This document shows positions 24,958-56,666 of a stretch of DNA of 64,000 bases, one piece after another. Every line of letters starts with the position of its first letter. Within the stretch, counting starts at the first letter, position 1. The notes below the pieces were generated by a model that was given only the letters and a program-made list of their open reading frames with translations, ran no database searches and was not told the DNA's origin. This stretch comes from Membranipora membranacea. Its lineage: Eukaryota > Bryozoa > Gymnolaemata > Cheilostomatida > Membraniporidae. The stretch is taken from the NCBI GenBank assembly GCA_914767715.1, contig OU612065.1:37076001-37140000 (forward strand), read 5' to 3'. The translations under genes were made by a program, and so were the position numbers.

Positions 24958-25146
24958 CTTAGTGCCAGCAACTAGAAAAAAATTTAAGTGCGATGAAGTA
25001 TTATTCACCACCGTAATTTATCATCTCATGGTTAACTATCGTAGACCACGCATCTCAGTTATTTTTTAGTCTCACCTGAATATTTTTGATAGTGATTGTA
25101 AGGTTCCAGAGAGGTGCTTTTTAACTTGACTTTTGTTTATGTAGGG

Positions 25147-25659
25147 CAGGGGTGCCCAACCTTTTCTCTCAAGTGAGCCATTTCAAAAATCAATTAAACC
25201 AAATGAGCTGACCACATCGCGTGTAGACAACATGGAAACAGTCAGTGATATATATGTATCATATTCATTCATGTATAAGTGTTGGCAAAAATTCCAAAGC
25301 AAAGTCATTGTGTGAGATTATGCGCGTAGCGCGAAAAAATTGTTGAGGCAATTTCTGGTCATTTAAGGCGACCTGGAGTTTTGTAAGCATTTTAAGCATT
25401 TTGCAAATTTTTGTAAGCATTTTGGAAAATTTAGGTTGGCAAGTCTGCAAGAAGACAACTCTACACACATATTACAATTCAGGCACCCAGTACAATGAAC
25501 TTGTATACACTATACATACATTTAATGTACATTGTACATGCACGAATTGAACGCATGAAATTCGCGCCAAAAAGCGCGTGAAATTGCAAATATTAAAATG
25601 AGCCACCCAAAAAGCCAAAATGAGCCGAGGTGGCTCAAGAGCCATAGGTTGGGCACCTG
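25147..25659. mobile_element. hAT-type MITE, 513 bp, left arm only
   Basis: The ends are CAGGGGTGCCCAACCTT and, inverted, AGGTTGGGCACCTG, typical hAT termini beginning with CAG. It is flanked by the 8-bp duplication ATGTAGGG (25139-25146 and 25660-25667). The mirrored position in the right arm (about 45130) carries a single ATGTAGGG and no insert, i.e. the pre-insertion site. There is no transposase ORF. It sits about 70 bp upstream of the probable 5' exon of the aquaporin. Confidence 0.92.
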
Positions 25660-25667
25660 ATGTAGGG

Positions 25668-26842
25668 TATTACAAGCTCACTTGACAAATCTTACAAAAA
25701 TTCAATGGATGAAATGTTCAACAAGAAAAGAAGTCTAAAATAGATATAAAAAATAGTATATTGGTATAACCTATACACATATAAAGTACATAAATGATCA
25801 TTGCTAAATTAAATCACAATAGCTTTTTTAAGTGTTTGGTATCTGTGTCTGTTATATTATTTTACCCAGCGATCCCCCATCTAATAATAAATGTCTTTTT
25901 TTTGCCCGTGATGCCCTATTCTATATGAAGTCTTTTCATTTTCACAGTAAACAAACCTAGTAATTGAGAGTGTGTGGAGTAATGACCAATTATGAGTATA
26001 CATTCCTATTTTAAACAAAAAATTGAGGTATTTTGTCCTTATTTACATAACAGCACTTGCCAAAAAAGTAAGCATTTTACAGAGGAGCAGACACATTACC
26101 TATTTGATATTACGATCTGATGAGAATAGTGCCACAGTTTTAGGTCTTCTTGCCAGGACTGCTAGTTACCACTGCTTCAAGAGTCTGGTCTAATTCACAT
26201 TTATACCACCAAAAGTCATTTCATGATTTCTGCTGTCATTGTTTCACTTTCGGCGATCAATTCTCATCCTGCTAGTAATATTTTAGATGTCAAAGTGAAA
26301 AATAGACTTTTTGCAGAAAAGATCCGTTTCTGCAGCAAGGTCATTGTTATATGAATTCATAGAGAGGTATGAAGTTCCCTAGAGGAGTGAAACAAGGTTA
26401 TTCCAAGGATAAATTTCTGATTTATTGTTGACGTGGGTTGGTCTGATATTGCCAGACATCCTAGATAGAGAGCCAATTATTGACATTTCAGCTCCGACGC
26501 TTGAGGGATCATAACTCGACAATTTGTTTATTCATTTCGATTTGATTGCCTTTTTCCTGAGTGGCTCATGTGTATCTCCAAATAAATCTGTTTAGTGAAT
26601 TTCAAAGAAATCATAGTTTTGATTGTCTGTAGCTTGGCTGATAGCACATATGATTCTGTGAATGCTGTACTATAGAGTGTAGATGAACGAATCATTATCT
26701 GTCCATGTCTGTAGTCTCTCTGAAGAAAAAAAGGGATAGAATGGACGACTTGACGAGAGATTCAATACAACACCATGTGTAATAACACATACCCTAGCTG
26801 GCTGACGATCCTATAAATCGCTAATTGTATGACTTTTGTATA
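25668..26842. other. Intergenic part of the left arm
   Basis: Lies between the aquaporin 5' end and the 3' flank of the caspase-like gene and is mirrored in the right arm at about 43960-45130. No exon was recognised; the short open frames do not stay equally open in both arms. Confidence 0.45.
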
Positions 26843-27153
26843 ACTACAAGGCCCTGTTTATGACAAAACAAGGGGTGGGCTGCCCCTAAAGAGGGACGCA
26901 AGTTACCCGAAGTCCTCGTACTGAGAGTGTGATACATCCTAGATAACTAGAATGCATCCTAGAGGTGAGGCCATGGTGGACCTCCTAATCATAAGTGTGC
27001 AGCAAGCTGTCAGAAACTGAAACAGGCACTAATCAGCTATTGGCAGTGACACTTTGATCTTAGCCAATAGGCCGAGAAGCAATCTACTACAAGGCCCTGT
27101 TTATGACAAAACAGAGGGTGGGCTGCCCCTAAAGAGGGACGCAAGTTGCCTGC
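26843..27153 (-). mobile_element. U2-snRNA-headed SINE-like repeat, copy A (left arm)
   Basis: On the minus strand a unit of about 242 bp starts near 27084 with a block matching the U2 snRNA 5' end (gattgcttctcggccta, then ttggctaagatcaaagtg). It continues through a hairpin region and a body with ctaggatgcattctag, and ends at 26843 with a tail containing gcgtccctctttaggggcag and aacagggccttgtagt. A second copy of the tail (27086-27153) precedes the head, so the element looks like the remains of a tandem dimer. Confidence 0.75.
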
Positions 27154-27807
27154 CTGCTGTGAGATTATTTAAATCTTGATTTGGTGATGAAACACTCAAA
27201 GTACAAACACAATATATTTGCAATAAAGTATATAAAAGTGAAATTAATTTGGTTTATCTTTTTCTTTTTAACATCATAAAATATATATTACGAATGACAG
27301 TGAAACAGGAAGCGCTTAAAAATGTAGAAAAAACACGACCATTCTTAAAAAGAGAAGATTTGTATGTTAGATCAATCTTATACGCAATCTCGAAATTATA
27401 TCTATATGGTTGAGCCACCAAACAGCCCTTTCTTAAAATAACTACCGTTTGTTATTTTTGTTAAAACTGTTGTTGCAAATTGAATACTAGAACAATGCGT
27501 GGTAACAGCATGCATTTGCTTTCGCTCACATGTATATATATATAAAAAAAAACACAAAATCACTTCACTAATGTTGGCAACGGAGTCTAACACCTCCTTA
27601 CTGTGTATCAAGGAAACCATATAGATTATTAAAACCAGGTACAAGATCCAGAACCTCAACAATTTAACCAAAACCAAATATAGCTTAAAAACTGTGTATA
27701 CTCTAACAAAGCCAGTCAGCTTACCGTCCAACACACTTTTCAGTTGCGCTCTCTGAGCGCCCTCGTAGAGGTCTCATACTCTTTAACCCCGACTGAGTCC
27801 CCAAAAT

Positions 27808-30800
27808 TCAGTTTTCCAAGCTTCCATTTGCAAAAGCTGCGTTTAGTACTATAGGGTCAAAAAGGGTTGACCTCAGTTCTGGTGTTTGAAAGTTCGAGCT
27901 TTTCGCTCTCATTGTCGCACATGCTCTAGCAAACATAGTGTTAATATCTGTGTGACCATCTGCTGCCTTGATTTGGTCAGCGATTGCCCCTGTAAATATT
28001 CCCCTTCTAGCACGCCCTCCTGTCACAGTGGACATTAAAAGTACTGTATTAGGCCTGGTTAACGTAATATGGCGATCAACTCTTACTGCACATCTTGACG
28101 TCGTCAGTGCAATAGAACTCTGGCATGCCTGAACTAACATCACCTGCATTGAGGAAAAAACAAGTTGTTCAGCAATAAAACTTTCAAATAATTTACAATT
28201 CAACAGTTGATTGATATATCGAATGGTTCAATTCGAAATTCTCATTACATAAGTACAAAGTGTTGCGGGATGAACAGAAATAAAGAAGAGATAAAAGTTT
28301 GCAATCAGAGACTAACCATTGGCACAGTGCTTGGCAGTCTTGTGCTGAACTGCTCTAGAAGATGGTTCAGTGACATCTCGCCACCCTCTCTGTTTTTCAG
28401 TATCCCACCAGCACCATGAGACATGATACACACAATCAGCACTGAGCAGGACTCATCGATATAACTGTCGATGTACTGATGAATGATGTTTCCCAGCTGG
28501 TAGTCATTGTCCCACTCAGATCTGACAACAGCACAGCCGGCGCTTGTGAGCGCATTATCCAAATTTACTGCTTCCTCTACAGCTCCTTTTCTGTTATGAA
28601 TGTTGTATAGAATCAATCCACAGTGACTAGGTTTTGAATATCCACCGGGTTTCTGAATACCTGCTGATATAAAACTATAGTTTAAAATCAGCCCTATCTA
28701 CCTCATGATTTTTTGCATATTGAACACGATGTCTTGAATAAGTTGAGCAAGCCCTTCACTTGCATTCCGAACTTTACTCTGCATTTGGTTATAAGAGTGT
28801 AATCTTATGGTATAAAAATCAAAAGGGATCCCATGATAGATGCCATAAAATAGACACACCATCATACCTTGAAGAACTGACTAAATGGCATTCTCTTGGT
28901 AGGCTATGTAGTTGATCATATTAAAACTCCCAAGCTATAAAAAATGGGCACTCCCTTATCTAGCTACAAATCGGTCGATTGTGACTACTTTTTATTAGTT
29001 GTAACATATATATGCCCGATCGATTCACATATTGTGTAGACTTAATTGACAATTTCCCATTGGAAAACAAATCACCGGTCATGATTTGATGCGCTGACTC
29101 TGTGGATGCTCTTATCCTTCCATCTGTAATATCAATAATTCACAGTGTTACTTACTCTTAGACTCATTTGGTTTGACCTGGCAGGTTAGGTCTGTCTACC
29201 TTTGAAGTAGCCTATCTTGACAAGCTTTGTTCGGTGGGCAAAGCTTGTCAAACCGAACAAAGCTTGTCAAGACAGGCTACCCATGAAGATGACCACCTAA
29301 AAAAATTGATGTGCAAACCACCAAATCTTTGACTTGGTGCTAAGAAAGGGAAAGTTTTTGCGATGGCCATATGGATAAAACAAATTTGATTCCTTGCAAG
29401 TATTCAGCCATTTAGAAATATACCAACTTGCCCATTGAACAACTTTGCATACTGGAGGTTAAGTTCTGATGAGCTGAATGGCTTCTCTCTGGCCCTGAAA
29501 AAAAGTAATGAATTATTATATTATTATGAAATGAGCTGAAGGCTGTGCTCATCTTATTGTAGTGAAGGGTCTAAGTCAAAGTAGATATAAGTAAAATCCT
29601 GAAGCGATCCGCGGACTGTCTGAATCTGCAAACTTGGCAAACTGGTGCATTTCCTACAGCTTAAATCGAGCAAAATTTACATCTTTAAGCCTAAATAATT
29701 AGCTTGGCAATACCAATCAGTAGTAAGGGACAAAGAAGATAGCAGTTTTTGGAAAAAAATTTCAGGTTGGTTTTTTATTTAATTTTGCTTCCACACTTAA
29801 TATAATTTGGGGGTAAACCGAAGTCTATTATGGGTATGATTTCCTTACATACCTCCAGCTTCTTGATGTCCGTCATCGAATGGGAGACATTTTTTGAGCC
29901 GCAATCTCATTGTGACATCAGGCTCATCAGCATCGAAAACCGATCCATAGGAATATCTCTCTATGTAGGTCTCCCTTAACCTAGTAGCTTCTGAAAATTT
30001 GAGTGAAAATTTTATGAGCATGTGGTCGTAAACTGACATATGAGTATTGAATCCAGGAAGAGGTTCTTGTAAAGTATTTGCTACCAAACTGTGAAGACTG
30101 TCGGCCAACAACCAAAAGGCTTTCACTTGAGTAAGAGAATGACAGCCTTGACAAAATTAAAGACGTCATTTGTATCACCCTTTTAAGTCTGAGCACGGTC
30201 ACCTGTCTATGGCTGTGCTGGCTCTTGTATTTACTTCTTAGGCTAGGCTTTGCTTATGTTCGGAAAAGCTTGAAACTAGCTGAAGATACTAGTCCGATTG
30301 TTTTGATATTGCAGCAGAATAGCCATAGATAATTGGCCCTGTGATATCTATAACACTCAAATTGATTGACATGCTGAAAAATACTCGAGACTTGGGTACA
30401 GCTACGGCTAAGGATAAGGTCTAGGACTAAGGCTAAGGATATTCCGTCAGTGGATGGCTATGGTATCCAATAGTCCAGCATATGACCTATATGAAATATC
30501 TGTGACTTAGGAACATGACCAGGTTCCAATTGCATACTGACTTAGCCTGGCTGGTCAAGTCAGGCTAATACTGACTCTAAATAACTTTTATCTTTTTTTT
30601 CTGATTTCAAGATGAGAGAGCACAGCTTTCTACTGGTTACTTTTGGGGGAAACCCTCATAAAACTAAGGGAAGTTATCAAAGAGAGGGTTTGAAACAATA
30701 TCAACTTGATATACTTTGAAAGATTGTGTTGGACCGGAGGTACTGAGCTCCCAACCTCCTCCCCCTCTCTGCATGGCAAACACACAACAACTGAGCTATG

Positions 30801-33800
30801 TTCCCTGATACCTATACTTGTTCAAGATGATAGCAGAAATTTTTAAATGCACTGAGAAATCTGAGAATGTAGCAGGCAACCAGGTGATGTCCACACCTTT
30901 TAAAGAATGGCTACTGGCTACGGGACTGTTTGTATAGCATACCTGATATTGACAGAATAATTTCTGCTCTGAAACTTCCATGTGTGTTCGGTGTTTCTGG
31001 GACAAGCTTAAATCGGTCCTGCAATGACAGCGGTGTCGACCGTTGAAAAACATCTCGGTACAATGTTCTCAGTCGAGCTACGATCATCCTTCTGGAGCGT
31101 ACATACTGGAGTGTGTGCGGAACTTTTATGTCAACGATCATGTGCACTAAAATATTATTAACAATGAAGAAAATATTGGTGAGCGTTTTGGAACTTTTGC
31201 CCCGAAGTTTTTTACTTAATAATGATACATACAAATAGTTCATACTCATGAGAGCCTAAAGTTAAAGGGCTTAAACTTGGGTTTAATGGTCCTTGCATTT
31301 AAAATTGACACAAATGACACTGTAGGTCCGACTTCGGTTAGTTTTGGCTATACTAAAGATTTTATATGTTGTTGGGGACAATAAGGCCAAGAAATGTGAA
31401 AAAACTTTGACCAATCCAACAAAATTGAGAAGAATATGTTTTCTTTCTTATAATGTAACATATTATAGGGGAAAAAAATATGGGGCGCCTCACGCATTTG
31501 TAACCGAAAGTAACGATCAACGCCACTGTATATGTTGTTTGGCAGACAGGGTACTTGCCATAGTATTAGATGTTGTTAATCTGGTGCAGAATTGACGAAC
31601 AAATGAACACCATCACCAGGAAATTGTTAGAATTTCAACAATGTAGGACATAGGTTAATGAAAGGGAGGTGGGTTGACCAATCCAACAAAATAGAGAAGA
31701 ATATTTTTACATTTTTTCTTACAGAATTGACAAAGCTTGCAGGAACTCCAAAATATGACCCTATTTAGGTTTTCTTACCAAATCCATTCATCATAGCACT
31801 ATCATACTCTTCAAGCTGCATCCATGGTCCCTCACGTTCCGTGATTCTTATCATCTCGTCTCTGTCTGGAAAACAATGCTACTACCTTTGAACATATATA
31901 ATTATGGCAAAGATTCCACTGGTAGGCTACTGTTTCATTGACCCTGTCAAACTTGATATGACCAATACTCAAGCAGTTGAAAGAAATAATTTCTTCAAAA
32001 ACTCATATATGGAAGGTACCCTGTCTGTCAAACAATGTATTACAGTAACGTTGAAGCGCACTTTTTCCCATTCTTTACTATCATGAGGAAGAAAAAAGAC
32101 ACCACAAACATCAAATTTAAAAGTAAGTGTTGTTTATTGATGCACATACAAACAATAGAGCAAACAAGCTTGAAACTAGCTCTTTGTTTCCATGAAATCA
32201 ACCTAACCTGTTTGAGCCAAAGAGAGTCTACTGGTTCGATGGTGCTATGGTGGGCCCGCATGGCTGCGCGGTTAGCATCAAAAGCTGCAGATCGGAAGAC
32301 CCGGATTCAAGTCTTGCCAAGTTTCAGTTTGGCCTCTGCCATTGGGTACAGATACAATTCAGTTCGAGCTCAAGACATACATGGAAATACAGTGACTACG
32401 ACACAGCTTAACAACTGGTCACTCTTGTTCAGATTAACAAATTGCTAGCTCACCATAAGTGTTTGATATATATATAAACGAGCTCTCATCTTCAGATTTG
32501 TAAAGCTCTGCTTGATGAATCACTCTTAAATATATCAGCCCACTATCTGCTAGTGCATTGCTTACTGCCATATACCCGATCCCATCTCTTGCTTTAATCA
32601 CCGACACAACATCTGAAAAATATGTCACATAAAATTCAGAGTATACGCAGTGCTACTAGTTACATTGTTGCGTTGCTCTGTAATCTGGAAATTAATGTGT
32701 TAAGAAAAACAAGAGTTTTGGTTTGTATTTAAAAAGAATTTTGCAATCGCCAATCTTGTATATGAACATTCTAATAACACAGATTAGTTCTGGGAAATAA
32801 TCTGCTATCGTATGTGTTATTTTCTGATTCTCAGCGCATAAACCAGAGCGTATTATTTTTCTCATACCACTGGATTAGGAGCAGAGGACAGACATTAAGT
32901 TTAATCTAGTAATATCATACCTGATGGTGCCTCATCCCACTGAAGCGAATCTGCAAGAGAAATAAACTCAATTTGATAAAAACTTTAGCTTAAAACCCAT
33001 GGAAACTAATGAGTAACTGCTCCTGTCGGATGAAATAAACACTTTTTCTTTTCCATGATGAAGATTTAACTCGAGCACTTCCTCATGGCGTCATTCTATA
33101 GTTTTCAATGAATCTGATGATGCAGCAGCAAGTTCAACTAAAGTGACACATTATTTGTCTTAGTCTGAGCCCCCCTTAGACTTTTGCCCCTCGCCCGACG
33201 GCCCCAGCAGTTGTATGAAAATTTGAAAGCAGAGGAAACGATTTTGATTGGTTGATAGTGTGTGGCTTTTTTTTCTTATACCTATATGTTTAACAAAAAG
33301 AGGGAAATATAATGCACCGCCATTGAATTCCATATCTGGAATAGCATCATTAGCTTTCTTTTGCAAAACAAAGGGCTTGCAAAAATAGCCAGTCCCTAGT
33401 AGCAATCTAGAAATGCCCTAATCATCGACACTGTAGGGGTATAATTACTGTTTGCAATTTTGTAAACAAGACAATTTCTCAGGCTAATTATTCATGCTAC
33501 TAGGGACAGCCAATCAGATAACAGTCAGATGGGTCCCTTGTTTAGTGTCCTAACTGTATAACGCTATGATACTATTTCCATTCTAAGAGAAGAATCTAAT
33601 TCAGTGTGCACCGCACAATCATCACATCCACCCAAATGAAAGCATCCAGTACATGTAGTAATAGTTAACCTGCCAAGTAACAACTTAGGGTGGGATGATA
33701 GTATTTGAGTAAGTAAGTGGCACTTCCTTTTTGTGCAGTGTTTAGAGTACTGTTGTTATGATAACTACAAATGACTATTCTGAAAGACGAGTTATATATT

Positions 33801-35375
33801 AGCAAAATATAATTTCCGCTTGTTGATCCCTGCTCGATGATATGCATTATTAACACTACCAGATCTCACACATACCTGGGGAGGAGGGAGCAGAACTATC
33901 ACTGCTGCTTTTATCTGAAAAGGAAACGTCCAATTAGTCAATAATAGGAGTCTGACGACATATTTGTAACAAGCGGTGAGTGATTCTTAAGAATAACAGG
34001 CTAAGAGACCTAGGTCCTATGACTACACTGTGATTTGTTAGTATCAGTCAATTAGAGTTTACAAAGTATAATTCTATTTATGACACACGCGTAAGCTAAA
34101 TAAAGTGCTGAAATTGAAAATGTTTTAGTATTTTTGTACTTTTCTTTAATCTGGTGCTTATTATGATTTGATACTCTCCATGTAATAATGAGCGTTTTTT
34201 AAACTTTATTGGCGTGTCTTTCACTCGATAAGAATGATTTTAACAATCAGCCATTGAGAAAAAAGTGAGAAATATTCGATCAAGATGAAAAAGAAGGCAA
34301 TCATAGTATAGTAGTTGTTTCATAATTTGAGGCCTATAACAAATAATACATCAAATATGTGAGCAGCAGGAGTTGTCTTTAAGGCATGAATGTGGGAGCA
34401 ACTCTTAACTGCATAACACCAATAAAATGTCAAAAAATAAAGAGACAACAATCGAGTCGTTGAAACCTGATGCAAAATTTGCCCTTTTAAGCATACATAT
34501 ATATTTCAAAACGAATTTGATAACTGCACTTAGCCCCTCATATTTAGCAGGTCATAAACAAATATCAGATCAAGAACAACATAATTGTTCAACACAGTAG
34601 CTTTTTGACTGTAAACATTTTGGCCTCTATGAATCGTATACTGTCATGGGTTTGATGCATCTCCAGTCTTAGTTTTGTAGTCATTGATTCTTCAATGACA
34701 TTTTTAGAAAATAGTCATCATTTTTTACGATTTGTTAGTCGTGTTGAGCATTGATGAACGTGTCTGGCAAGCCTGACAGGGCAAGCATAAACGAACAAAG
34801 ATTTCTCTGTAGTTGATCAGTAATTTTTTTTATGGTTAAGAATCTTCTAGTAATGTTTGACACTTGATTGGCATGTTCAGAAAAGATTCCTGATGACTGA
34901 TGTTCAAAAGGTTTTCTATTTATTGCGTTTATTGGATAAAATAGAAAGGTTTAAAATATTTACAATTCTAGGAGCATTTGAGTTCGCCCTGCATAACAAA
35001 TAATATATTCCGACATGCATCGAGCTTGAGCTAACCCAAATTTCATAAAGATTTCTTTGTTTATTTCCCTTGATTTTATTTATGGTTGATTTTCCTTGCA
35101 TATAAGGGAGAACACACTGCAGCGTTAATTGTGAATTGCAAATAAAATGTACTTATTTATTTATACATATTTATGTTAGTACACTTTTTCAAAGTGGGTA
35201 CTCTTTAGTCCGCCCTCAGAAAAAACCTGTAATTGATTAATCACTGCACACAAAGCAGTGAAAATCAACCACAAAGCTAAATCAAGTACACCCTACTACA
35301 GATGACAATCCGCACAAGCATAAACAAACAGTAGTAACACTTACCAACAGGGTGTTCCATATGTACGTCAGGCAT
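27808..35375 (-). CDS. Caspase-like protein with a novel long N-terminal region and QACQS active site
   Basis: Eleven exons on the minus strand: 35375-35345 (ATG), 33914-33876, 32950-32921, 32612-32454, 31865-31779, 31146-30943, 29990-29853, 29494-29453, 29123-29076, 28660-28317 and 28143-27808 (TGA). The total is 1458 nt, 485 aa, and all phases fit. Residues 1 to about 259 are an N-terminal region with an acidic, Ser-rich start and no CARD, DED or death domain that I recognise. Residues about 260-485 are caspase-like: GLILYNIHNRKGA (Arg of the S1 pocket), catalytic His in IMSHG (about H341), catalytic Cys in VQACQSS (about C381), a strand VLLMSTVTGG replacing the usual AYSTxPG, and a C-terminal QTPELRSTL. 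QACQS departs from QACR(G), and no WRN-type S1 motif is seen in p10. It may therefore cut after a residue other than Asp or be a pseudo-protease. The whole gene lies in the left palindrome arm; the right copy lacks exons 8-11. Confidence 0.85.
29206..29282. repeat. Hairpin in intron 8 of the caspase-like gene
   Basis: Arms of about 29 bp share agcctatcttgacaagcttt and its complement around a short loop that itself repeats caaagcttgtca. This part is absent from the right arm, lying inside the segment deleted there. Confidence 0.7.
32251..32420 (+). mobile_element. tRNA-derived SINE, left-arm copy
   Basis: A tRNA-like head with a box-A-like TGGCTGCGCGGTTAGCA and a box-B-like CCGGATTCAAGTC is followed by a non-tRNA body. 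The 3' end is unclear. It lies in intron 4 of the caspase-like gene, antisense to it. The mirrored copy at 40430-40580 shows that it predates the split of the two arms. Confidence 0.6.
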
Positions 35376-36497
35376 TTCTGAACGGCGATTTACTATATTT
35401 ATTATGTTCACAAATGAGTAGTATAGCCTTTGTCACTAGTCTATAAATGAAAAAATAAATCACAATCGTTTGAAATGAACTGAATTTCAACTATGCTCAA
35501 GAGTAGAGAGTCATTCATCACTAAGTGTGAATAAAATTTTGCAAAAGTGGAAACAAAATTGTCAATGTGTGGTAGAATTCTGATTGAGGTAACTTGTCAG
35601 AACATCGAGCAATGGTGTATGAATTCAAAACTGGCATTATTTGTTGTTCTGTTTGTACGAAGAGCTTCAATTTCTTTTTACCTGGAATTAATTTGAACAT
35701 GATACCAACTATTCAGAGAATTCGTGATAGCAGTCAACTTATTTTTAACATTTCTGAGCTCTAAGCTGGAACGCTTGATAGCTTCAAAACCAGCCTGAGC
35801 CGAGCCCAGTTTCAACTGATTCCAACAAAAAGTGATAATGAAAGGCAGATTAAGAGATTTATGAATCAATCATTCTTTCTTATCAAAATATATCAATTCG
35901 GTAGACAATATCTTCGGTGCTGCTTATTTATTTCACCATCCAAAACGTTCGGCAGTATTTGGCGAACTTGATACATGGATTGGAACAAACGGAAGCTCAT
36001 AACTTACAAGGAAAACCCAATGTCTTGGAAACTTTGTATACAAGAAAAAAGCTCCATACAAGAAAAAAAACTTGAGACGCAAGAGAAAAACTCCATATAA
36101 GAAATAATGCCATACACGAGAACTCCATATTCTTACCATAGAATGTATAATATGTTTATGTAACTGATTATCGTTTGTCCTTCCTTAGTATTCTATCGCT
36201 CAGTAGAATAAAAGATCTTTAACTACGTGGTGATTTTCCTGTAGCACTCAGACCCTCTCTCTCAGTAGTTGTTACTGCAAGCTTCCAGAACAAAATGGCT
36301 GCATGGGCTGAGCTGTCACATGACATATGATGATGTAACTTTATAATTTTTTCAGGCTAAGTAGATTCACTCTAGGAACTAGTGTTTCCCCAAAAAAATG
36401 AGTGCTATTGCACATGTGAAATCCAAAAGCCTGAGTTCCAATATGAACCATAATTGGCCTCCCAAAAAACCTGTTTGTCATCTGAGTTTTTCCTTGT

Positions 36498-36620
36498 TCT
36501 GAGTTCCAATATGAACCATAATTGGCGTCGTGCCATTCCCCCTAAATTTCAATAGCCAACAGAGCGGTTAGTGACTGTTGGGGTTCCCAAAAAACCTGTT
36601 TGTCATCTGAGTTTTTCAAG
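36498..36620. other. Asymmetric centre of the palindrome
   Basis: The spacer between the arms is built from local copies. The blocks gagttccaatatgaacca and acctgtttgtcatctgag occur twice in direct order on the left side (about 36440-36497 and 36500-36618) and once inverted on the right (36621-36690). Between them is about 60 bp seen nowhere else in the arms (from gtcgtgccatt to gactgttgggg). The innermost palindrome is gagtttttc-aag-gaaaaactc at 36609-36629. Confidence 0.8.
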
Positions 36621-37736
36621 GAAAAACTCAGATGACAAACAGGTTTTTTGGGAGGCCAATTATGGTTCATATTGGAACTCAGGCTTTTGGATTTCACATG
36701 TGCAATAGCACTCATTTTTTTGGGGAAACACTAGTTCCTAGAGTGAATCTACTTAGCCTGAAAAAATTATAAAGTTACATCATCATATGTCATGTGACAG
36801 CTCAGCCCATGCAGCCATTTTGTTCTGGAAGCTTGCAGTAACAACTACTGAGAGAGAGGGTCTGAGTGCTACAGGAAAATCACCACGTAGTTAAAGATCT
36901 TTTATTCTACTGAGCGATAGAATACTAAGGAAGGACAAACGATAATCAGTTACATAAACATATTATACATTCTATGGTAAGAATATGGAGTTCTCGTGTA
37001 TGGCATTATTTCTTATATGGAGTTTTTCTCTTGCGTCTCAAGTTTTTTTTCTTGTATGGAGCTTTTTTCTTGTATACAAAGTTTCCAAGACATTGGGTTT
37101 TCCTTGTAAGTTATGAGCTTCCGTTTGTTCCAATCCATGTATCAAGTTCGCCAAATACTGCCGAACGTTTTGGATGGTGAAATAATTAAGCAGCACCGAA
37201 GATATTGTCTACCGAATTGATATATTTTGATAAGAAAGAATGATTGATTCATATATCTCTTAATCTGCCTTTCATTATCACTTTTTGTTGGAATCAGTTG
37301 AAACTGGGCTCGGCTCAGGCTGGTTTTGAAGCTATCAAGCGTTCCAGCTTAGAGCTCAGAAATGTTAAAAATAAGTTGACTGCTATCACGAATTCTCTGA
37401 ATAGTTGGTATCATGTTCAAATTAATTCCAGGTAAAAAGAAATTGAAGCTCTTCGTACAAACAGAACAACAAATAATGCCAGTTTTGAATTCATACACCA
37501 TTGCTCGATGTTCTGACAAGTTACCTCAATCAGAATTCTACCACACATCGACAATTTTGTTTCCACTTTTGCAAAATTTATTCACTCTTAGTGATGAATG
37601 ACTCTTTACTCTTGAGCATAGTTGAAATTCAGTTCATTTCAAACGATTGTGATTTATTTTTTCATTTATAGACTAGTGACAAAGGCTATACTACTCATTT
37701 GTGAACATAATAAATATAGTAAATCGCCGTTCAGAA

Positions 37737-40700
37737 ATGCCTGACGTACATATGGAACACCCTGTTGGTAAGTGTTACTACTGTGTGTTTATGCTTGTGC
37801 GGATTGTCATCTGTAGTAGGGTGTACTTGATTTAGCTTTGTGGTTGATATTCACTGCTTTGTGTGCAGTGATTAATCAATTACAGGTTTTTTCTGAGGGC
37901 GGACTAAAGAGTACCCACTTTGAAAAAGTGTACTAACATAAATATGTATAAATAAATAAGTACATATTATTTGCAATTCACAATTAACGCTGCAGTGTGT
38001 TCTCCCTTATATGCAAGGAAAATCAACCATAAATAAAATCAAGGGAAAAAACAAAGAAATCTTTATGAAATTTGGGTTAGCTCAAGCTCGATGCATGTCG
38101 GAATATATTATTTGTTATGTAGGGCGAACTCAAATGCTCCTAGAATTGTAAATATTTAAAACCTTTCTATTTTATCCAATAAACGCAATAAATAGAAAAC
38201 CTTTTGAACATCAGTCATCAGGAATCTTTTCTGAACATGCCAATCAAGTGTCAAACATTACTAGAAGATTCTTAACCATAAAAAAAATTACTGATCAACT
38301 ACAGAGAAATCTTTGTTCGTTTATGCTTGCCCTGTCAGGCTTGCCAGACACGTTCATCAATGCTCAACACGACTAACAAATCGTAAAAAATGATGACTAT
38401 TTTCTAAAAATGTCATTGAAGAATCAATGACTACAAAACTAAGACTGGAGATGCATCAAACCCATGACAGTATACGATTCATAGAGGCCAAAATGTTTAC
38501 AGTCAAAAAGCTACTGTGTTGAACAATTATGTTGTTCTTGATCTGATATTTGTTTATGACCTGCTAAATATGAGGGGCTAAGTGCAGTTATCAAATTCGT
38601 TTTGAAATATATATGTATGCTTAAAAGGGCAAATTTTGCATCAGGTTTCAACGACTCGATTGTTGTCTCTTTATTTTTTGACATTTTATTGGTGTTATGC
38701 AGTTAAGAGTTGCTCCCACATTCATGCCTTAAAGACAACTCCTGCTGCTCACATTATTTGATGTATTATTTGTTATAGGCCTCAAATTATGAAACAACTA
38801 CTATACTATGATTGCCTTCTTTTTCATCTTGATCGAATATTTCTCAATTTTTTCTCAATGGCTGATTGTTAAAATCATTCTTATCGAGTGAAAGACACGC
38901 CAATAAAGTTTAAAAAACGCTCATTATTACATGGAGAGTATCAAATCATAATAAGCACCAGATTAAAGAAAAGTACAAAAATACTAAAACATTTTCAATT
39001 TCAGCACTTTATTTAGCTTACGCGTGTGTCATAAATAGAATTATACTTTGTAAACTCTAATTGACTGATACTAACAAATCACAGTGTAGTCATAGGACCT
39101 AGGTCTCATAGCCTGTTATTCTTAAGAATCACTCACCGCTTGTTACAAATATGTCGTCAGACTCCTATTATTGACTAATTGGACGTTTTCTTTTCAGATG
39201 AAAGCAGCAGTGATGGTTCTGCTCCCTCCTCCCCAGGTATGTGTGAGATCTAGTAGTGTTAATAATTCATATCATCAAGCAGGGATCAACAAGCGGAAAT
39301 TATATTTTCCTAATATATAACTCGTCTTTCAGAATAATCATTTGTAGTTATCATAACAACAGTACTCTAAACACTGCACAAAAAGGAAGTGCCACTTACT
39401 TACTCAAATACTATCATCCCACCCTAAGTTGTTACTTGGCAGGTTAACTATTACTACATGTACTGGATGCTTTCATTTGGGTGGATGTGATGATTGTGCG
39501 GTGCATTATATTTCCCTCTTTTTGTTAAACATTTATAGGTATAAGAAAAAAAAGCCACACAACTATCAACCAATCAAAATCGTTCCCTCTGCTTTCAAAT
39601 TTTCATACAACTGCGGGGGCCGTCGGGCGAGGGGCAAAAGTCTAAGGGGGGTTCAGACTAAGACAAATAATGTGTCACTTTAGTTGAACTTGCTGCTGCA
39701 TCATCAGATTCATTGAAAACTATAGAATGACGCCATGAGGAAGTGCCCGAGTTAAATCTTCATCATGGAAAACAAAAAAGTGTTTATTTCATCCTACAGG
39801 AGCATTTACTCATTAGTTTCCATGGGTTTTAAGCTAAAGTTTTTATCAAATTGAGTTTATTTCTCTTGCAGATTCGCTTCAGTGGGATGAGGCACCATCA
39901 GGTATGATATTACTAGATTAAACTTAATGTCTGTCCTCTGCTCCTAATCCAGTGGTATGAGAAAAATAATACGCTCTGGTTTATGCGCTGAGAATCAGAA
40001 AATAACACATACGATAGCAGATTATTTCCCAGAACTAATCTGTGTTATTAGAATGTTCATATACAAGATTGGCGATTGCAAAATTCTTTTTAAATACAAA
40101 CCAAAACTCTTGTTTTTCTTAACACATTAATTTCCAGATTACAGAGCAACGCAACAATGTAACTAGTAGCACTGCGTATACTCTGAATTTTATGTGACAT
40201 ATTTTTCAGATGTTGTGTCGGTGATTAAAGCAAGAGATGGGATCGGGTATATGGCAGTAAGCAATGCACTAGCAGATGGTGGGCTGATATATCCAAGAGT
40301 GATTCATCAAGCAGAGCTTTACAAATCTGAAGATGAGAGCTTGTTTATATATATATCAAACACTTATGGTGAGCTACGCAATTTGTGAATATGAACAAGA
40401 GTGACCAGTTGTTAAGCTGTGTCATAGTCACTGTATTTCCATGTATGTCTTGAGCTCGAACTGAATTGTATCTGTACCCAATGGCAGAGGTCAAACTGAA
40501 ACTTGGCAAGACTTGAATCCGGGTCTTCCGATCTGCAGCTTTTGATGCTAACCGCGCAGCCATGCTGGCCCACCATAGCACCATCGAACCAGTAGACTCT
40601 CTTTGGCTCAAACAGGTTAGGTTGATTTCATGGAAACAAAGAGCTAGTTTCAAGCTTGTTTGCTCTATTGTTTGTATGTGCATCAATAAACAACACTTAC

Positions 40701-42608
40701 TTTTGAATTTGATGTTTGTGGTGTCTTTTTTCTTCCTCATGATAGTAAAGAATGGGAAAAAGTGCGCTTCAACGTTACTGTAATACATTGTTTGACAGAC
40801 AGGGTACCTTCCATATATGAGTTTTTGTAGAAATTTTTTCTTTCAACTGCTTGAGTATTGGTCATATCAAGTTTGACAGGGTCAATGAAACAGTAGCCTA
40901 CCAGTGGAATCTTTGCCATAATTATATATGTTCAAAGGTAGTAGCATTGCTTTCCAGACAGAGACGAGATGATAAGAATCACGGAACGTGAGGGACCATG
41001 GATGCAGCTTGAAGAGTATGATAGTGCTATGATGAATGGATTTGGTAAGAAAACCTAAATAGGGTCATATTTTTGGAGTTCCTGCAAGCTTTGTCAATTC
41101 TGTAAGAAAAAATGTAAAAATATTCTTCTCTATTTTGTTGGATTGGTCAACCCACCTCCCTTTCACTAACCTATGTCCTACATTGTTGAAATTCTAACAA
41201 TTTCCTGGTGATGGTGTTCATTTGTTCGTCAATTCTGCACCAGATTAACAACATCTAATACTATGGCAAGTACCCTGTCTGCCAAACAACATATACAGTG
41301 GCGTTGATCGTCACTTTCGGCCCCATATTTTTTTCCCCTTTAATATGTTACATTATAAGAAAGAAAACATATTCTTCTCAATTTTGTTGGATTGGTCAAA
41401 GTTTTGTCACATTTCTTGGCCTTATTGTCCCCAACAACATAAAATCTTTAGTATAGCCAAAACTAACCGAAGTCGGACCTACAGGGTCATTTGTGTCAAT
41501 TTTAAATGCAAGGACCATTAAACCCAAGTTTAAGCCCTTTAACTTTAGGCTCTCATGAGTATGAACTATTTGTATGTATCATTATTAAGTAAAAGACTTC
41601 GGGGCAAAAGTTCCAAAACGCTCACCAATATTTTCTTCATTGTTAATAATATTTTAGTGCACATGATCAATGACATAAAAGTTCCTCAGACACTCCAGTA
41701 TGTACCCTCCGAAAGAATGATCAGACATCGAGTGAGAACATTGTACCAAGTTGTTTTTCAACCACCGCTGTCATTGGAGGGCCGACTTAAGCTTGTCCCA
41801 GAAACACCGAACACACATGGAAGTTTCAGAGCAGAAATTATTTTGTCAATATCAGGTATGCTATACAAACAGTCCCGTAGCCAGTAGCCATTCTTTAAAA
41901 GGTGTGGACATCACCTGGTTGCCTGCTACATTCTCAGATTTCTCAGTGCATTTAAAAATTTCTGCTATCATCTTGAACAAGTATAGGTATCAGGGAACAT
42001 AGCTCATTTGTTGTGTGTTTGACATGCAGAGAGGGGGAGGAGGTTGGGAGCTAAGTACCTCCGGTCCAACACGAGTATTTTTCAGCATGTCAATCAATTT
42101 GAGTGTTATAGATATCACATAGTGCAAATTATCTATAGCTTTTCGGCTGCAATATCAAAACAATCGGACTTGTATCATCAGCTAGCTTCAAGCTTTTCCA
42201 AACATAAGCAAAGCCTAGCATAAGAAGTAAATACAAGAGCCAGCACAGCCATAGACAGGTGACCGTGCTCAGACTTAAAAGGGTGATACAAATGACGTCT
42301 TTAATTTTGTCAAGGCTGTCATTCTCTTACTTAAGTGAAAGCCTTTTGGTTGTTGGGTGACAGTCTTCACAGTTTGGTAGCAAATACTTTACAAGAACCT
42401 CTTCCTGGATTCAATACTCATATGTCAGTTTACGACCACATGCTCATAAAATTTTCACTCAAATTTTCAGAAGCTACTAGGTTAAGGGAGACCTATATAG
42501 AGAGATATTCCTATGGATCGGTTTTCGATGCTGATGAGCCTGATGTCACAATGAGATTGCGGCTCAAAAAATGTCTCCCATTCGATGACGGACATCAAGA
42601 AGCTGGAG
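37737..42608 (+). pseudogene. Mirrored caspase-like copy without the protease domain
   Basis: Seven exons mirror exons 1-7 of the left gene: 37737-37767 (ATG), 39198-39236, 39872-39901, 40210-40368, 40958-41044, 41658-41855 and 42471-42608. All keep their frame, splice sites and phases (682 nt, about 227 aa). Exon 6 is 6 bp shorter, in frame. Directly after the exon 7 donor, a deletion joins the start of intron 7 to the stop-codon region, removing exons 8-11 with both catalytic residues. The remaining reading frame would stop within intron 7 (gtatgtaa) unless it is spliced to another exon. It could be a dead copy or encode only the N-terminal region, i.e. a decoy or dominant partner; the intact frames over seven exons favour recent loss or retained function. 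Confidence 0.8.
40430..40580 (-). mobile_element. tRNA-derived SINE, right-arm copy
   Basis: Inverse copy of 32251-32420, with the same box A-like and box B-like blocks. Confidence 0.6.
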
Positions 42609-43315
42609 GTATGTAAGGAAATCATAGGAGGAAACTGAATTTTGGGGGCTCAGTCTGGGTTAAAGGGTATGAGACCTCTACTAGGGCGCTCAGACAGCGC
42701 AACTGAAAAGTGTGTTGGATGGTAAGCTGACTGGCTTTGTTAGAGTATACACAGTTTTTAAGCTATATTTGGTTTTGGTTAAATTGTTGAGGTTCTGGAT
42801 TTTGTACCTGGTTTTAATCATCTATATTGTTTCCTTGACACACAGTTAGGAGGTGTTAGACTTTGTTGCCAACATAAGTGAAGTGATTTTGTGTTTTTTT
42901 TTATATATATACATGTGAGCGAAAGCAAATGCATGCTGTTACCATGCAATGTTCTAGTATTCAATTTGCAACAACAGTTTTAACAAAATTATCAAATGGT
43001 AGTTATTTTAAGAAAGGGCTGTTTGGTGGCTCAACCATATAGATATAATTTCGAGATTGCCTATAAGATTGATGTAACATACAAATCTTCTCTTTTTAAG
43101 AATGGTCGTGTTTTTTTTTACATGTTTAAACGCTTCCTGTTTTACTGTCATTCGTAACATTTTTTTTTAAATATGTCATAGTAATTCATATTTTATGATG
43201 TTAAAAACAAAAAGATAAACCAAATTAATTTCACTTTTATATACTTTATTGCAAATATATTGTGTTTGTACTTTGAATGTTTAATTTCCAAATCAAGATT
43301 TAAATAATCTCACAG

Positions 43316-43624
43316 CAGGCAACTTGCGTCCCTCTTTAGGGGCAGCCCACCCTCTGTTTTGTCATAAACAGGGCCTTGTAGTAGATCGCTTCTCGGCCTA
43401 TTGGCTAAGATCAAAGTGCCACTGCCAATAGCTGATAAGTGCATGTTTCAGTTTCTGACAGCTTGCTGCACACTTATGATTAGGAGATCCACCATGGCCT
43501 CACCTCTAGGATGCATTCTAGTTCTCTAGGATGTATCACACTCTCAGTACAATGACTTCAGGCAACTTGTGTTTCTCTTTAGGGGCAGCCCACTCTCTGT
43601 TTTGTCATCAACAGGGCCTTGTAG
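43316..43624 (+). mobile_element. U2-snRNA-headed SINE-like repeat, copy B (right arm)
   Basis: Mirror of copy A: tail remnant 43316-43382, U2-like head from 43385 (atcgcttctcggccta), body, and a complete tail ending gggccttgtagt at 43624. The head here is closer to U2 than in copy A (atcgc versus attgc). Confidence 0.75.
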
Positions 43625-45302
43625 TTATGGAGCAGATCACGGACTGCACAGATGATTTGCAGTAATAGTTTGGGTGTTTGGGTAATACTTCCAGCCAGTC
43701 AATCTGTTTTCATTCTTGATATTGACCGTATCACTGATTTTAATATTAAACGATGAGCAGTTTCCATTTTTAAATAGCCTGACTTCTATGCGTTAAGGCA
43801 TTTGTTTGTGGGTGATTTAACAACATTAAATTGTGTAATTGTAGCACTGTTGCATTAGTTGAAGTGCTCAGACAGCTGCAATGCGAGTTACCATGCATAA
43901 TGAATGGTTGATAATGCCTCACAATCTGACTAAGATTATGGGGGGGGGGGGGTTATAGGATCGTCAGCCAGCTAGGATATGTGTTATTACACATGGTGTT
44001 GTATTGAATCTCTCGTCAAGTCGTCCATTCTATCCCTTCTTTTCTTCAGAGAGACTACAGACATGGACTGAGATGGCATGATGATGATGATCCGTTAATC
44101 TACACTCTATAGTACAGCATTCACAGAATCATATGTGCTATCAGCCAAGCTACAGACAATCAAAACTATGATTCCTTTTAAATTCACTAAACAGATTCAT
44201 TTGGAGATAGCATGAGCCACTCAGGAAAAAAGGCAATCTAATAGAAATGAATAAACAAATTGTCAAGCTCGGAGCTGAAATGTCAATAATTGGCTCTCTA
44301 TCTATGTTGTCAGGCAATATCAGACCAACCCATGTCACCAATAAATCAGAATTTTATCCTTGGAATAACCTTGTTTCACTCCTCTAGGGAACTTCATAAC
44401 TCTCTATGAATTCATAATTTATAACAAAAAGTAAAAAGTACATCTTTAGAATGGCCTTGCTGCAGAAACGGATCTTTTCTGCAAAAAGGTTATTTTTCAC
44501 TTTGACATCAGAAATATTTCTAGCAGGATGAGAATTGATCGCCGAAAGTGAAATAATGACAGCAGAAATCATGAAATGACTTTTGGTGGGATAAATGTGA
44601 ATTAGACCAGACTCTTGAAGCAGTGGTATCTAGCAGTCCTGGCAAGAAGACCTAAAACTGTGGCACTATTCTCATCAGATCGTAATATCAAATAGGTAAT
44701 GTGTCTGCGCCTCTGTAAAATGCTTACTTTTTTGGCAAGCGCTGTTATGTAAAGAAGGACAAAATATCTCAAATTAAAAAAAAAATAGGAATGTATACTC
44801 ATAATTGGTCATTACTCCACACACTCTCAATTACTAGGTTTGTTTACTGTGAAAATGAAAAGACTTCATATAGAATAGGGCATCACTGGCAAAAAAAAGA
44901 CATTTATTATTAGATGGGGGATCGCTGGGTAAAATAATATAACAGACACAGATACCAAACACTTAAAAAAGCTATTGTGATTTAATTTAGCAATGATCAT
45001 TTATGTACTTTATATGTGTGTAGGTTATACCAATATAATATTTTTTATATCTTTTTTAAACTTCTTTTCTTGTTGAACATTTCATACATTGAATTTTTGT
45101 AAGATTTGTTAAGGGAGCTTGTAATACCCTACATAAACAAAAGTCAAGTTAAAAAGCACCTCTCTGGATCCTTACAATCACTGTCAAAAATATTCAGGTG
45201 AGACTAAAAAATAACTGAGATGCATGGTGTACGATAGTTAACCATGAGATGATAAATTAAAATAAAATGAATAATATTTCATGCACTTTAATTTTTCTCT
45301 AG

Positions 45303-45589
45303 TCACTGGCACTAAGATGGGTATCTACGACAGATTCATTGCCAGCAGTGCTGCAGATATGAAAGACATAATCTTCTACAAAGCGGTATTAGCGGAGCTT
45401 ATAGGCACTTTCTGTCTGATTTTTATGGTTTGTGCCAGTCCATATGGTGAGAGTAGTACAGATTTAGACCATGTCCGGGTCAGTTTATCCACTGGATTTG
45501 TTCTCGCTTCCCTAATATGGATATTAGGAAAGCTGTCTGGGGCCGACTTCAACCCAGCTATATCTATCTCCAAGCTTGTCACCAGAAAA
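45303..45589 (+). pseudogene. Orphan copy of the first aquaporin coding exon
   Basis: Same length (287 nt) and splice sites as the functional exon on the left (24971-24685), with ATG at 45317. It encodes helix 1, helix 2 and the first NPA, with changes including Thr to Lys before LSGADF and NPAL to NPAI. The inverted repeat ends 145 bp further on, inside intron 1, and no second aquaporin exon follows. It cannot make a channel. Confidence 0.88.
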
Positions 45590-45734
45590 GTGAGTTAATC
45601 TGATTCCTCAATAGAATCTTTATGAAAACCTAGACAAAAAAAATAAATTTGTCAGTTTCCTAATTATTTTGGCTTAAGAAATAAAAAAATTGTAGGGGTT
45701 TGGTTTCAGTTGTAAAGGTTCTACTTTTAACATC

Positions 45735-48700
45735 ATCATCATCTTTGAAGCATCCTTGTCCTTGGTGTTGGGAGTTATCTTTGATCATAAAATAGAAGAG
45801 CAACTCCCACTAATTTTTTTTGGTTTCATGCAATTGTGGATTGTGGAATCAGGTAGGATGGGATGGAATGGTGCAATGGTGGTATCTGATTGCAAGTTTT
45901 ACAATTTATCTAATCTAGACATACACTTTTTTCTAGCCGCTATACCAAGGGAGCCAAGATCAAAACACTGCTGACCATATCTGATCTTGCATATTTTTGT
46001 AATTATCACCGCATTACTCATTACTCATTACTCGCAGCATCCATGTTATCCGACAGATTTATGCGGAGAAAAGGATAGATTTGGCCACTAATGCTTTGGT
46101 TCTAGGCAGCATACAACATATATCATGAACCTAAACCATTGTTTATGCCAATTATGTCATAATAATTATATGCCTGCATGACAAATGGCGGGACAAGGGA
46201 AGCCTTATAAAAACCACAATGCGACAATTCCATCCAAGTCATCACCACTAGGTTAGATGAAGTTCCTACTGTAAATACTGGTATAAGCGCAACTTATTGT
46301 GCAGAGTTGACAGAATAAAAAATATTTTGCCGAAGGTACGATATCAAGCTGCTTAAAATCCTACTGTTGCTGAAAATATTTTCTACATGTTCAGCCACCA
46401 CTATACAAGATAGATAGACTCAGGAATGAGGTACAGTCAAGTGTATGTGGTTCAAAAGGAACCACTATGAACCACTTACCGCTCTTCAGTCTTTCAACTG
46501 CCTCATCTGCAGCAACACAACATAAATTTAGGTCAACAAGAAAATTACCATAATTATTACCATATTAAATAACAGCATACTCCTTTTAATTCAGACTTTA
46601 AAATTCAGAACTCCTGTTAATCAGCCAAGGAAAATCGGTCCGTTCAGCCACTTCTCAATGCATTCTACTGCCACTTTACTCAAACTCTGTTTAATTGAGA
46701 CAAAATTTGGTGGTCCCAGAGGTTTGAATTGAGTGGAGTGCACTTTACTGAGAATGCTAAGTATTCACCTATAAGAGACATGCAGAAGCCAGAGATGATT
46801 TAACAATCACACTCCTGTCAAATCTTGTGTAGCCAAGGAGGGTCCAACACACCCTGGTGTGACTCATTCTTATGATAAATTAAGTTGTCTGCTCAGTTCT
46901 AGAGAGAATATAATTATCGATAAAGCATAAGTAGAAAAAGGTGAAGTCAATGAAACTGACCCACGCTCTGACTGGATGAAATCTAGTCTGTTTGTTTAGT
47001 TTATGGTATAATATGAATCTATTGGTTATACAAGCATTTGACTTGAACTTGTGTCATTTTCATTACTGAAGTCATTTTCTTTCTTGACTGTTTAAAACCC
47101 TGGACCATTTATATTCTGTCAAGGGTCACTTTTTTGGTGTCTCTGCCCGAAACCTTTCAATTTTCTTCATTTGATACGATGCTTATTGTATACATTTCTA
47201 CATGTCGAGTTTGGAAATTAAGTTTTGAGTCTCTTGTTATTGTCAATTTTGGCATTTTCAAAATGCAAATCAACCAGGTCAGGTCCTTTATAATCCCATG
47301 TGCAATCATCAGCATATTCTCTTTGATCCATGATGCCAAACCTGCCTGTACACCGTGGTTCTCAATACTCGGACTCCATAAGCTTTGTTATAATTACTAC
47401 ACTCCTGCTGATGCTGTCATAATTGTTAGATAAAGAAACTTACCAGTACTTGCTGCCTTTTAATCCAGCGTTGTGAGCGTGGCGTGTAGTCCGACAGAAT
47501 GCTAAACAATGAAGCTAAGGTGGATGTTGTGTTTCGATCATTGTTGCCTTATCATCAATAGTATGCTAGAGTATTGAGTCGAAGTTCACTAAATCATGTG
47601 CAGAAAAATGAAGATGATTTAACGAGCCATCAAACACATGCATATCACATGGAAAGAAGAGTTGCATACCCTTGTTTTGTTATTTCTGAATCCAAGGATA
47701 AAACTGCTATAATTAAACACCATACTTGTCTATGGCCATATCATGTTGAAAACGCCAGTTCTTTTCCAATAACTGAAGCTAAGCCATGTCGAGCCCAGAT
47801 AGTACTTGGATGGTCCGTCTGGGAATATATATTCTTGGAAATCACTTCACAAATAATATAAAAATTATAATGGGGTGAGAGTCGAAGAGGGCATATACTT
47901 GCCTTCCTTTCTTTGAATTTGACGTAAAGAGAGATCCGCATTACCAGCAGCAGCTTGGTGAAACATTGGGAGGGTTCAACGCCAAGGAAGTGGTACGGAA
48001 GTGAAAATTGAAAAAAAGAATCCTGCATAAGCTCGAATGTTGAGCTTTAATTCAGGTCATGCCTTGTCTAGGATACTAATTAGGGAAATACTGGTCCAAT
48101 TTTCTTGATTTTTCATTCTAATTTTAGTCTTTCCTTATTTGGCAATTTACAGACCCTCAATTTCCTTTTATATACTTTCTCATGATTGCAATTAAAATTT
48201 GAGCCACTTGTGCCCATACGAATGAATAGGAGCAACCAATAACTGGAAGCAGACTCAAATACATTTGGTCCACAATCAAAGCTCATTGGTCTCACCAAGG
48301 CTTTGGAGGCATTGCCCCTATCACAAAGACTATACGAGATACGGTTTTCACATATTTTTACTTCTGTACAGCCAAAGTGCATTTTTGCCAAAATCTTGAC
48401 TAGTTTAGTAGTAAGATCAATTCAAATTGGTAACTGGCACATCATATTTTTTTTCTCATGTCAATTACTGCTACACAATCAAATGGCTGCAACTTTACAA
48501 ATTGGTTTATACTTTTATTTACGCAATGCGTGAAATAGACTTCAGGTATAAAGAACAAATTTCATTCATGGCAATATAAGTTTTGGCAAAGAATAGGACG
48601 CCGACGGGTTGGTGAATGCCGATCCACCCCAGCTGTGACCGTTTGAATTTTGGGTGATGGTGAGTCACAGTTCAAAAACTCGAGAGTACAGTTCTACCTT

Positions 48701-52389: not shown

Positions 52390-52691
52390 CATGGCATATC
52401 TGTGTCATTACTCTTAATAATTGTTATTGTCCATTGATTTCTCTTTTGTTTTCCAATGGCATAGTTTTTTGGCAATAAAATATTGGCTATGGTCATGAGG
52501 TGAAATGTTCAACTTGAGAGTTAATTTAAGACTTATTGTCTTTGATCTCCTCCAGTTATGACCATGACAGAACACTTTCCCTCAAAATCAGCACAACATA
52601 CATTAGCTTAACAGTTCTATCCGAGCAGGCAAATACCATGCTGTACTTACACCTGATACTGACATCATGGTCATCAATGGTAATTATAGTC
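52390..52691. repeat. Diverged dispersed repeat (pattern near 52.4, 53.0, 56.4, 56.7 and 61.5 kb)
   Basis: Phrases such as gacatcatggtcatc, aacttgagrgttaattt and gttctatccnagca-gcaaa recur in the same order near 52520-52680, 53030-53130, 56395-56440, 56740-56815 and 61555-61900. These are old copies of one long interspersed repeat into which younger SINEs have inserted. No ORF identifies the family. Confidence 0.5.
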
Positions 52692-52925
52692 CATTGCTTC
52701 TTGGCCTATTGGCTAAGATCAAAGTGTCACTGCCAATGGCCGATTAGTGCCAGTTCAGTTTTGTCAACTCGCTGCGCACCCTCGTTCAGGAGGGCTTCTA
52801 TGGCCTCACATCTAGGATGCATTCTAGTTTTCTAGGATGTATCACATTCTCATTATGAGGATTAAGGGCACCTTGCGTCCCTCTTAAGGGGCAGCCCAAT
52901 CTTCTGTATCTTACTAAACAGCAAG
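52692..52925 (+). mobile_element. U2-snRNA-headed SINE-like repeat, copy C
   Basis: The head gcttcttggcctattggctaa is followed by the shared body (ctaggatgcattctag) and tail (gcgtccctcttaaggggcag). It is flanked by direct repeats of about 17 bp, attatagtccattgctt (52683-52699, overlapping the head) and attatactccattgctt (52926-52942). This is the target-duplication pattern of LINE-driven retroposition. Confidence 0.78.
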
Positions 52926-56335: not shown

Positions 56336-56441
56336 TAAAATTTAGCTTTTGATGTCCGTTGATTTCTCATCTGTGTCCTTGGCCTCTGGTCATGGGGTGA
56401 AAAATATGACCAACTTGAGGGTTAATTTGAGACTTGCTGTT

Positions 56442-56666
56442 TGCTAAGAAACAGAATATTGGGCTGCCCCTAAAGAGGGACGCAAGGTGCCCCAATCCTC
56501 ATACTGAGAATTTGATACATTCTAGAAAACTAGAATGCATCCTAGAGGAGAGGCCATAGAGGACCTCCTAATCATAAGTGTGCAGCAAGCTGCCTAAACT
56601 GAACTGGCACTAATCAGCCATTGGCAGTGACACTTTGATCTTAGCCAATAGGCCGAGAAGCGATCT
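56442..56666 (-). mobile_element. U2-snRNA-headed SINE-like repeat, copy D
   Basis: On the minus strand it starts at about 56665 with gatcgcttctcggccta followed by ttggctaagatcaaagtg. The body and tail are shared with the other copies, ending near 56442 with gtttcttagcaa. A clear target duplication was not seen. Confidence 0.78.

Follow-up and report, generated by a model that had tools for sequence, protein, structure and literature searches.

Exon 6 of a duplicated caspase-like gene in Membranipora membranacea is a narrow peak of divergence between the arms of an inverted duplication

Results

A caspase-like gene copied head to head

The DNA analysed here is a stretch of 64,000 nucleotides of Membranipora membranacea (the window, C1:37076001-37140000), and it belongs to the single haploid assembly of 339 Mb in 18 contigs that was used for the genome searches below. 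Comparison of the window with itself by blastn finds the two arms of a head-to-head inverted duplication (Table 1), which face each other across a centre that contains a 69 bp palindrome (36585-36653, 95.7%). The combination of repeated short pieces and a palindrome at this centre is suggestive of template switching. Substitution divergence between the arms climbs outward, from 0.7% in the inner 2.9 kb through 1.9% in the next 2.6 kb and 2.5% in the next 0.55 kb to 4.1-5.0% in the three outer blocks. Two stretches, 30388-30725 and 33321-33606, are present in the left arm only, with short shared sequence at their junctions.

The arms carry a caspase-like gene. The spliced model of its left copy has a caspase fold (PF00656, E = 3.8e-11; score 43.5 bits, cut-off 21.4), its nearest solved chains are those of caspase-8 (E about 6e-4), and it carries SHG and QAC motifs, which we take to be the sites of the catalytic His and Cys. 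No homologue of the whole left model was found at E<=0.001 in a large protein database, nor of its residues 1-200 at E<=10, and no Pfam family was hit by exons 4-7 even with E relaxed to 10. Seven inner-arm open reading frames upstream of exon 2 were compared with Pfam without revealing where the gene starts; weak similarities of these frames to Csm6_6H (0.018) and DUF7591 (0.069) fell under the Pfam cut-off and were set aside. The predicted exons 2-7 have intact splice sites, phase 1-1 throughout and open frames in both arms, and the right-hand exons 2-7 contain no stop codon, frameshift or splice damage.

Table 1. Positions in the window of the duplication and of the caspase-like and aquaporin exons that it carries. 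N and S are nonsynonymous and synonymous differences between the left and right copies.
Feature	Position	Strand	Remarks
Left arm of inverted duplication	24539..36496	-	self-blastn
Duplication centre	36497..36653	.	120-bp spacer of repeated pieces and 69-bp palindrome
Right arm of head-to-head inverted duplication	36617..45735	+	self-blastn
Exon 2, right	39198..39236	+	left 33876-33914; 2 N, 0 S
Exon 3, right	39872..39901	+	left 32921-32950; zero differences
Exon 4, right	40210..40368	+	left 32454-32612; 3.5 N, 0.5 S
Exon 5, right	40958..41044	+	left 31779-31865; zero differences
Exon 6, right copy, 198 nt	41658..41855	+	AG/GT intact, phase 1-1, frame open
Exon 6, left copy, 204 nt	30943..31146	-	splice sites and frame; codon alignment with right copy
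Divergence island, right	41669..41793	+	left counterpart 31005-31135; 18 mismatches in 125 columns
Exon 7, right	42471..42608	+	left 29853-29990; 0 N, 1 S
Caspase large-subunit exon, left only	28317..28658	-	tblastn range, ends approximate; SHG motif
Caspase small-subunit exon, left only	27808..28140	-	QACQS and stop codon; start approximate
2.0-kb left stretch with both caspase exons minus the last codons	27815..29834	-	missing from right between 42626 and 42632
Copied aquaporin exon, internal control	45317..45589	+	MIP match of left counterpart; near right-arm end

The right arm gives no p20 or p10 match, the caspase domain having gone with a 2-kb deletion that begins slightly within intron 7 and reaches the final codons, and when the right copy is read on beyond the exon 7 splice site a stop follows after two codons. 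We infer that the right gene would encode no protease. The neighbouring aquaporin gene is represented in the right arm by one exon only and has more exons, recognised by eye, on the left past the end of the arm. The left arm is probably the parental side, with the protease exons kept and the aquaporin gene running past the arm end; since the right arm is without the caspase domain and has the one aquaporin exon only, it is probably the daughter copy. The two copies of the aquaporin exon differ by 2 N in 211 sites and 3 S in 62.

Other elements were seen in the window. A separate second caspase gene lies at 6245-7346 (-), where the open reading frame 6245-6511 matches PF00656 (E = 1.5e-11) and the frame 7086-7346 was recognised by eye. 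A 5S rRNA match at 47728-47843 (+; Rfam, 42.5 bits) is perhaps a 5S-derived repeat, and two reverse-transcriptase-like frames of LINE type, at 20721-21834 (+) and 57601-60056 (-), were identified by eye. A dispersed repeat family occupies 26876-27092, 43376-43602, 52684-52925 and 56433-56666; its start presumably resembles U2 snRNA, for which Rfam at gathering scores gave no match.

Exon 6 differs far more than its surroundings

The two copies of exon 6, whose boundaries in the original prediction were exact, differ by 20 nucleotide changes, of which 17 are nonsynonymous and 3 synonymous (NG86). The codon alignment bears out the predicted 13 amino-acid-changing codons and two-residue deletion, the latter an in-frame loss of 6 nt from the right copy, and gives three silent changes where about two had been counted; the V4N, R16P and R18E replacements are as described. 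The changes are indeed tightly packed: a single 125-column window over the exon (Table 1) holds 18 mismatches, the highest count across 8725 aligned columns of the arms, and the next densest windows of that size hold 13, 13, 11, 10 and 10, all of them outside recognised exons. With the different gap placement of the blastn alignment the exon 6 window has 14 mismatches and is still the top one, barely above 13. The near-identity claimed for the neighbouring sequence also stands, with 3 of 300 and 3 of 216 positions different in the flanking introns, none in exon 5 and a single silent change in exon 7.

The repeated swapping of charge is real in its examples and affects 7 of the 13 changes, but the excess over random replacement (4.2 expected) is not significant (P = 0.08), and we do not use it as a signal. 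Nor was a helix-surface pattern found. AlphaFold2 models of exon 6 (two sequences, mean pLDDT 61) place a predicted helix at residues 18-32, which would include 6 of the 13 changed residues with no clear split by helical face.

How unusual is a window with 18 mismatches? Of 2000 within-block permutations one produced such a window, as did 0-1.5% of neutral conversion-mosaic simulations, depending on the assumed divergence and tract length. A negative-binomial null based on the 42 noncoding windows of the inner and middle arm gives 1.4e-5 per window, which survives correction, whereas the same null on all 62 noncoding windows gives 0.0027 per window, which is not significant after correction for window number. 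These tests, like those of selection below, were chosen after exon 6 had been picked out.

The arms are a mosaic

A two-state hidden Markov model describes the arms as a mosaic of segments of 0.6% and 5.4% divergence, and because the divergence is such a mosaic we infer that gene conversion has probably acted from arm to arm. The outer arm is mostly in the high-divergence state. In the inner and middle parts the diverged segments lie at exons 2, 4 and 6 and in part of intron 6, with a short weak one at 39746-39808 and another weak one at 42332-42360; the inner islands cover all of exon 2, 100 of the 159 nt of exon 4 and 152 of the 198 nt of exon 6, where the island (41652-41809) reaches 11.4% divergence. 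By circular shift, the overlap of islands with exons is above chance (P = 0.011), as is the number of mismatches in exons (P = 0.005); without exon 6 the overlap is not significant (P = 0.14). The intron 6 island (42003-42236 on the right, 13 mismatches in 233 columns) is noncoding and lies at the site of a left-arm insertion, and thus islands need no coding selection.

A distant paralogue and the search for a donor

The DNA of exon 6 was found in two places in the 339-Mb genome, which are the two arms, and a protein search with exons 4-7 gave nine matches, eight in the arms and one, to exon 7, on contig C7. The C7 locus is a distant paralogue, in which tblastn recognises exons 6 and 7 together with the two caspase exons; counterparts of exons 4 and 5 were recognised by eye. 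Both counts are lower bounds; the protein search overlooked the C7 exon 6, so that relatives at such a distance can be missed. The original prediction had offered conversion from an unseen paralogue as a source of the changes; within these lower bounds no third close copy was found in the genome, and no donor for exon 6 appeared in the window or in the haploid assembly. It had also likened the gene to those of self/non-self recognition or pathogen sensing. In place of many copies with a variable exon, the searches returned two places with exon 6 DNA and one distant paralogue (again as lower bounds), and a self/non-self function is unsupported.

Identity of the C7 paralogue to the left copy is 35% in exon 4, 25% in exon 5, 41% in exon 6, 48% in exon 7, 44% in the large subunit and 49% in the small subunit; to the right exon 6 it is 35%. 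The description of exon 6 as hypervariable is unproven, since it compares two sequences of a single genome, and at 41%, near the 44-49% of the caspase exons, the left exon 6 is no more variable than the rest of the paralogue pair. The C7 paralogue carries AHG and QACQ (SHG and QACQ in the left copy), and its possession of both caspase exons argues for loss of the domain on the right and against its gain on the left.

At the changed positions of exon 6 the C7 paralogue has the left amino acid at five and the right one at one, and it is without the right-copy deletion, which gives a polarity of 6:1 if the deletion is counted (P = 0.125) and 5:1 if it is not (P = 0.22). Single-nucleotide outgroup agreement is 5:5, and residue 18 of the paralogue is acidic, as in the right copy. 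These counts weakly suggest that the right copy may be the changed one.

Selection on exon 6

Is the divergence of exon 6 a mark of diversifying selection, as the original prediction proposed? Differences counted exon by exon (Table 1) put N above S in exons 2 and 4 as they do in exon 6. In the latter, dN (0.124) is larger than dS (0.067), a difference that is not significant when 3 of 20 changes are silent (P = 0.16 under neutral random placement; Fisher P = 0.41 for the N and S rates), so dN/dS by itself does not indicate diversifying selection. A local amino-acid excess is real against the following yardsticks. Nonsynonymous divergence in exon 6 is 11.5%, which is 2.4 times the outer noncoding divergence (Fisher P = 0.0015; binomial 0.0007-0.003) and about 12 times the 0.95% of the copied aquaporin exon (P = 1e-5); the N:S ratios of the two exons, 17:3 and 2:3, differ with P = 0.07. 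Silent divergence, at 6.4%, is above the 1.04% of inner and middle noncoding DNA (P = 0.014; 3 changes against 0.5 expected from inner noncoding DNA, P = 0.013) and resembles the 4.8% of outer noncoding DNA and the 4.8% of silent sites in the aquaporin exon. Because of this agreement, exon 6 looks like an unconverted patch as old as the duplication, one that conversion may have spared. Selection is a reasonable reading of its amino-acid excess.

Discussion

The explanation that we favour, at a probability of about 0.45 and therefore tentatively, is gene conversion among the arms with exon 6 as a surviving, selected peak of divergence in a right copy that is without a protease. The caspase-like gene and the neighbouring aquaporin exon were copied head to head in an inverted duplication, and the 2-kb piece with the caspase domain was lost from the right copy. 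Conversion from arm to arm would have kept the introns and exons 3, 5 and 7 homogenised, while exon 6, and to a lesser degree exons 2 and 4, retained or gained differences, with an excess of amino-acid changes, mainly in the caspase-less right copy. A peak would remain where selection holds duplicates apart at one functional site in spite of conversion. The right gene product would be the front part of the protein, without a protease and with the surface of exon 6 altered, perhaps a regulator or decoy and not a caspase. In its more specific form, which we think doubtful, the right copy would be a new caspase-less partner whose exon 6 surface was reshaped by positive selection, the difference being held against conversion within the palindrome; if this were true, its product might act on the left caspase, or on a fast-evolving ligand, as a decoy or regulator. 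The right copy has no caspase domain, a point absent from the original prediction, and relaxed constraint or a changed role is therefore as likely as a recognition surface.

The rival that survives best, although we consider it somewhat unlikely, is that the caspase-less right copy is dying and that exon 6 is a patch not yet overwritten, drifting without constraint. The deletion itself fits such a decay, as do the noncoding island, a dN/dS not significantly above 1 and the five changes that hit residues common to the left copy and the C7 paralogue (H10, R16, L25, T37 and F45). Much depends on the neutral divergence assumed: at the 10.4% of the densest noncoding window 15.4 N are expected and the 17 found are unremarkable (P = 0.37), but at 4.8-5.4% they are excessive by the binomial test given above. 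If the right branch alone was free to change, 17 N has a probability below 1e-6 at 4.8-5.4% and of 0.002 even at 10.4%. The undamaged frame and splice sites of right exons 2-7 also speak against decay.

It is improbable, in our estimation, that exon 6 was imported as a short conversion tract from a diverged paralogue or from an allele missing from the assembly. Its sharp edges, its dense mixed substitutions, the four codons with two changes each and the raised number of silent changes would all suit such a tract, but the DNA search returned the two arms only (a lower bound, in a haploid assembly that may lack the donor), the protein search added the one distant paralogue, and the right exon 6 is less like that paralogue than the left one is. 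An artefact of the single assembly on which this work is based, with two haplotypes joined in inverted orientation to give the palindrome or a local consensus error to give the difference in exon 6, is very improbable, as divergence climbs from the centre in a way that a fold-back read would not produce, the right arm is without 2 kb and ends inside the aquaporin gene, and neither the 20 changes nor the 6-nt deletion breaks the frame.

Returning to the selected peak under conversion, a head-to-head pair of duplicates, near-identical outside one exon and with a protease in one copy only, offers a clean test of selection against conversion, and the locus allows one to ask for the binding partners of the front part in this family of caspases. 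Should exon 6 prove to be mere decay, it would be a caution against reading clusters of amino-acid differences between two copies as immune diversity.

Comparison with known systems

Among the literature matches listed for hypervariable caspase exons, palindromes and caspase expansions nothing fitted, which leaves absence in print unproven. Narrow coding peaks of divergence between duplicates are described elsewhere. PMC3924837 presents exon 5 of the red/green opsins, with theory, as such a peak under gene conversion; PMC3728101 reports a divergence peak between converting duplicates of GOT1 in the copepod Tigriopus, together with a second duplicate pair in which intron islands are explained without selection; and PMC2588116 gives a coding divergence peak in the Drosophila transporter pair CG18281/CG17637. 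RHCE/RHD is named as the same pattern in PMC3924837 and PMC3728101. With opsin, RHCE/RHD, CG18281/CG17637 and GOT1 the present locus shares a narrow coding peak amid near-identical surroundings. It differs from them in the inverted, head-to-head orientation of its arms, in the loss of the catalytic domain from one copy, and in that conversion is deduced here from the mosaic and not from an intron outgroup.

Compared with caspases (peptidase family C14, PF00656), the left copy and the C7 paralogue share the large- and small-subunit exons, whereas exons 4-7 are without a Pfam match and the right copy is without the caspase domain. Caspases have protease-less relatives in c-FLIP-like and CARD-only regulators. 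The right copy resembles these in being the front part of a caspase-gene copy without a working protease, and differs from them in that no death-fold domain was recognised in it. The locus would be either a new member of the established divergence-peak pattern or a decaying copy that resembles one.
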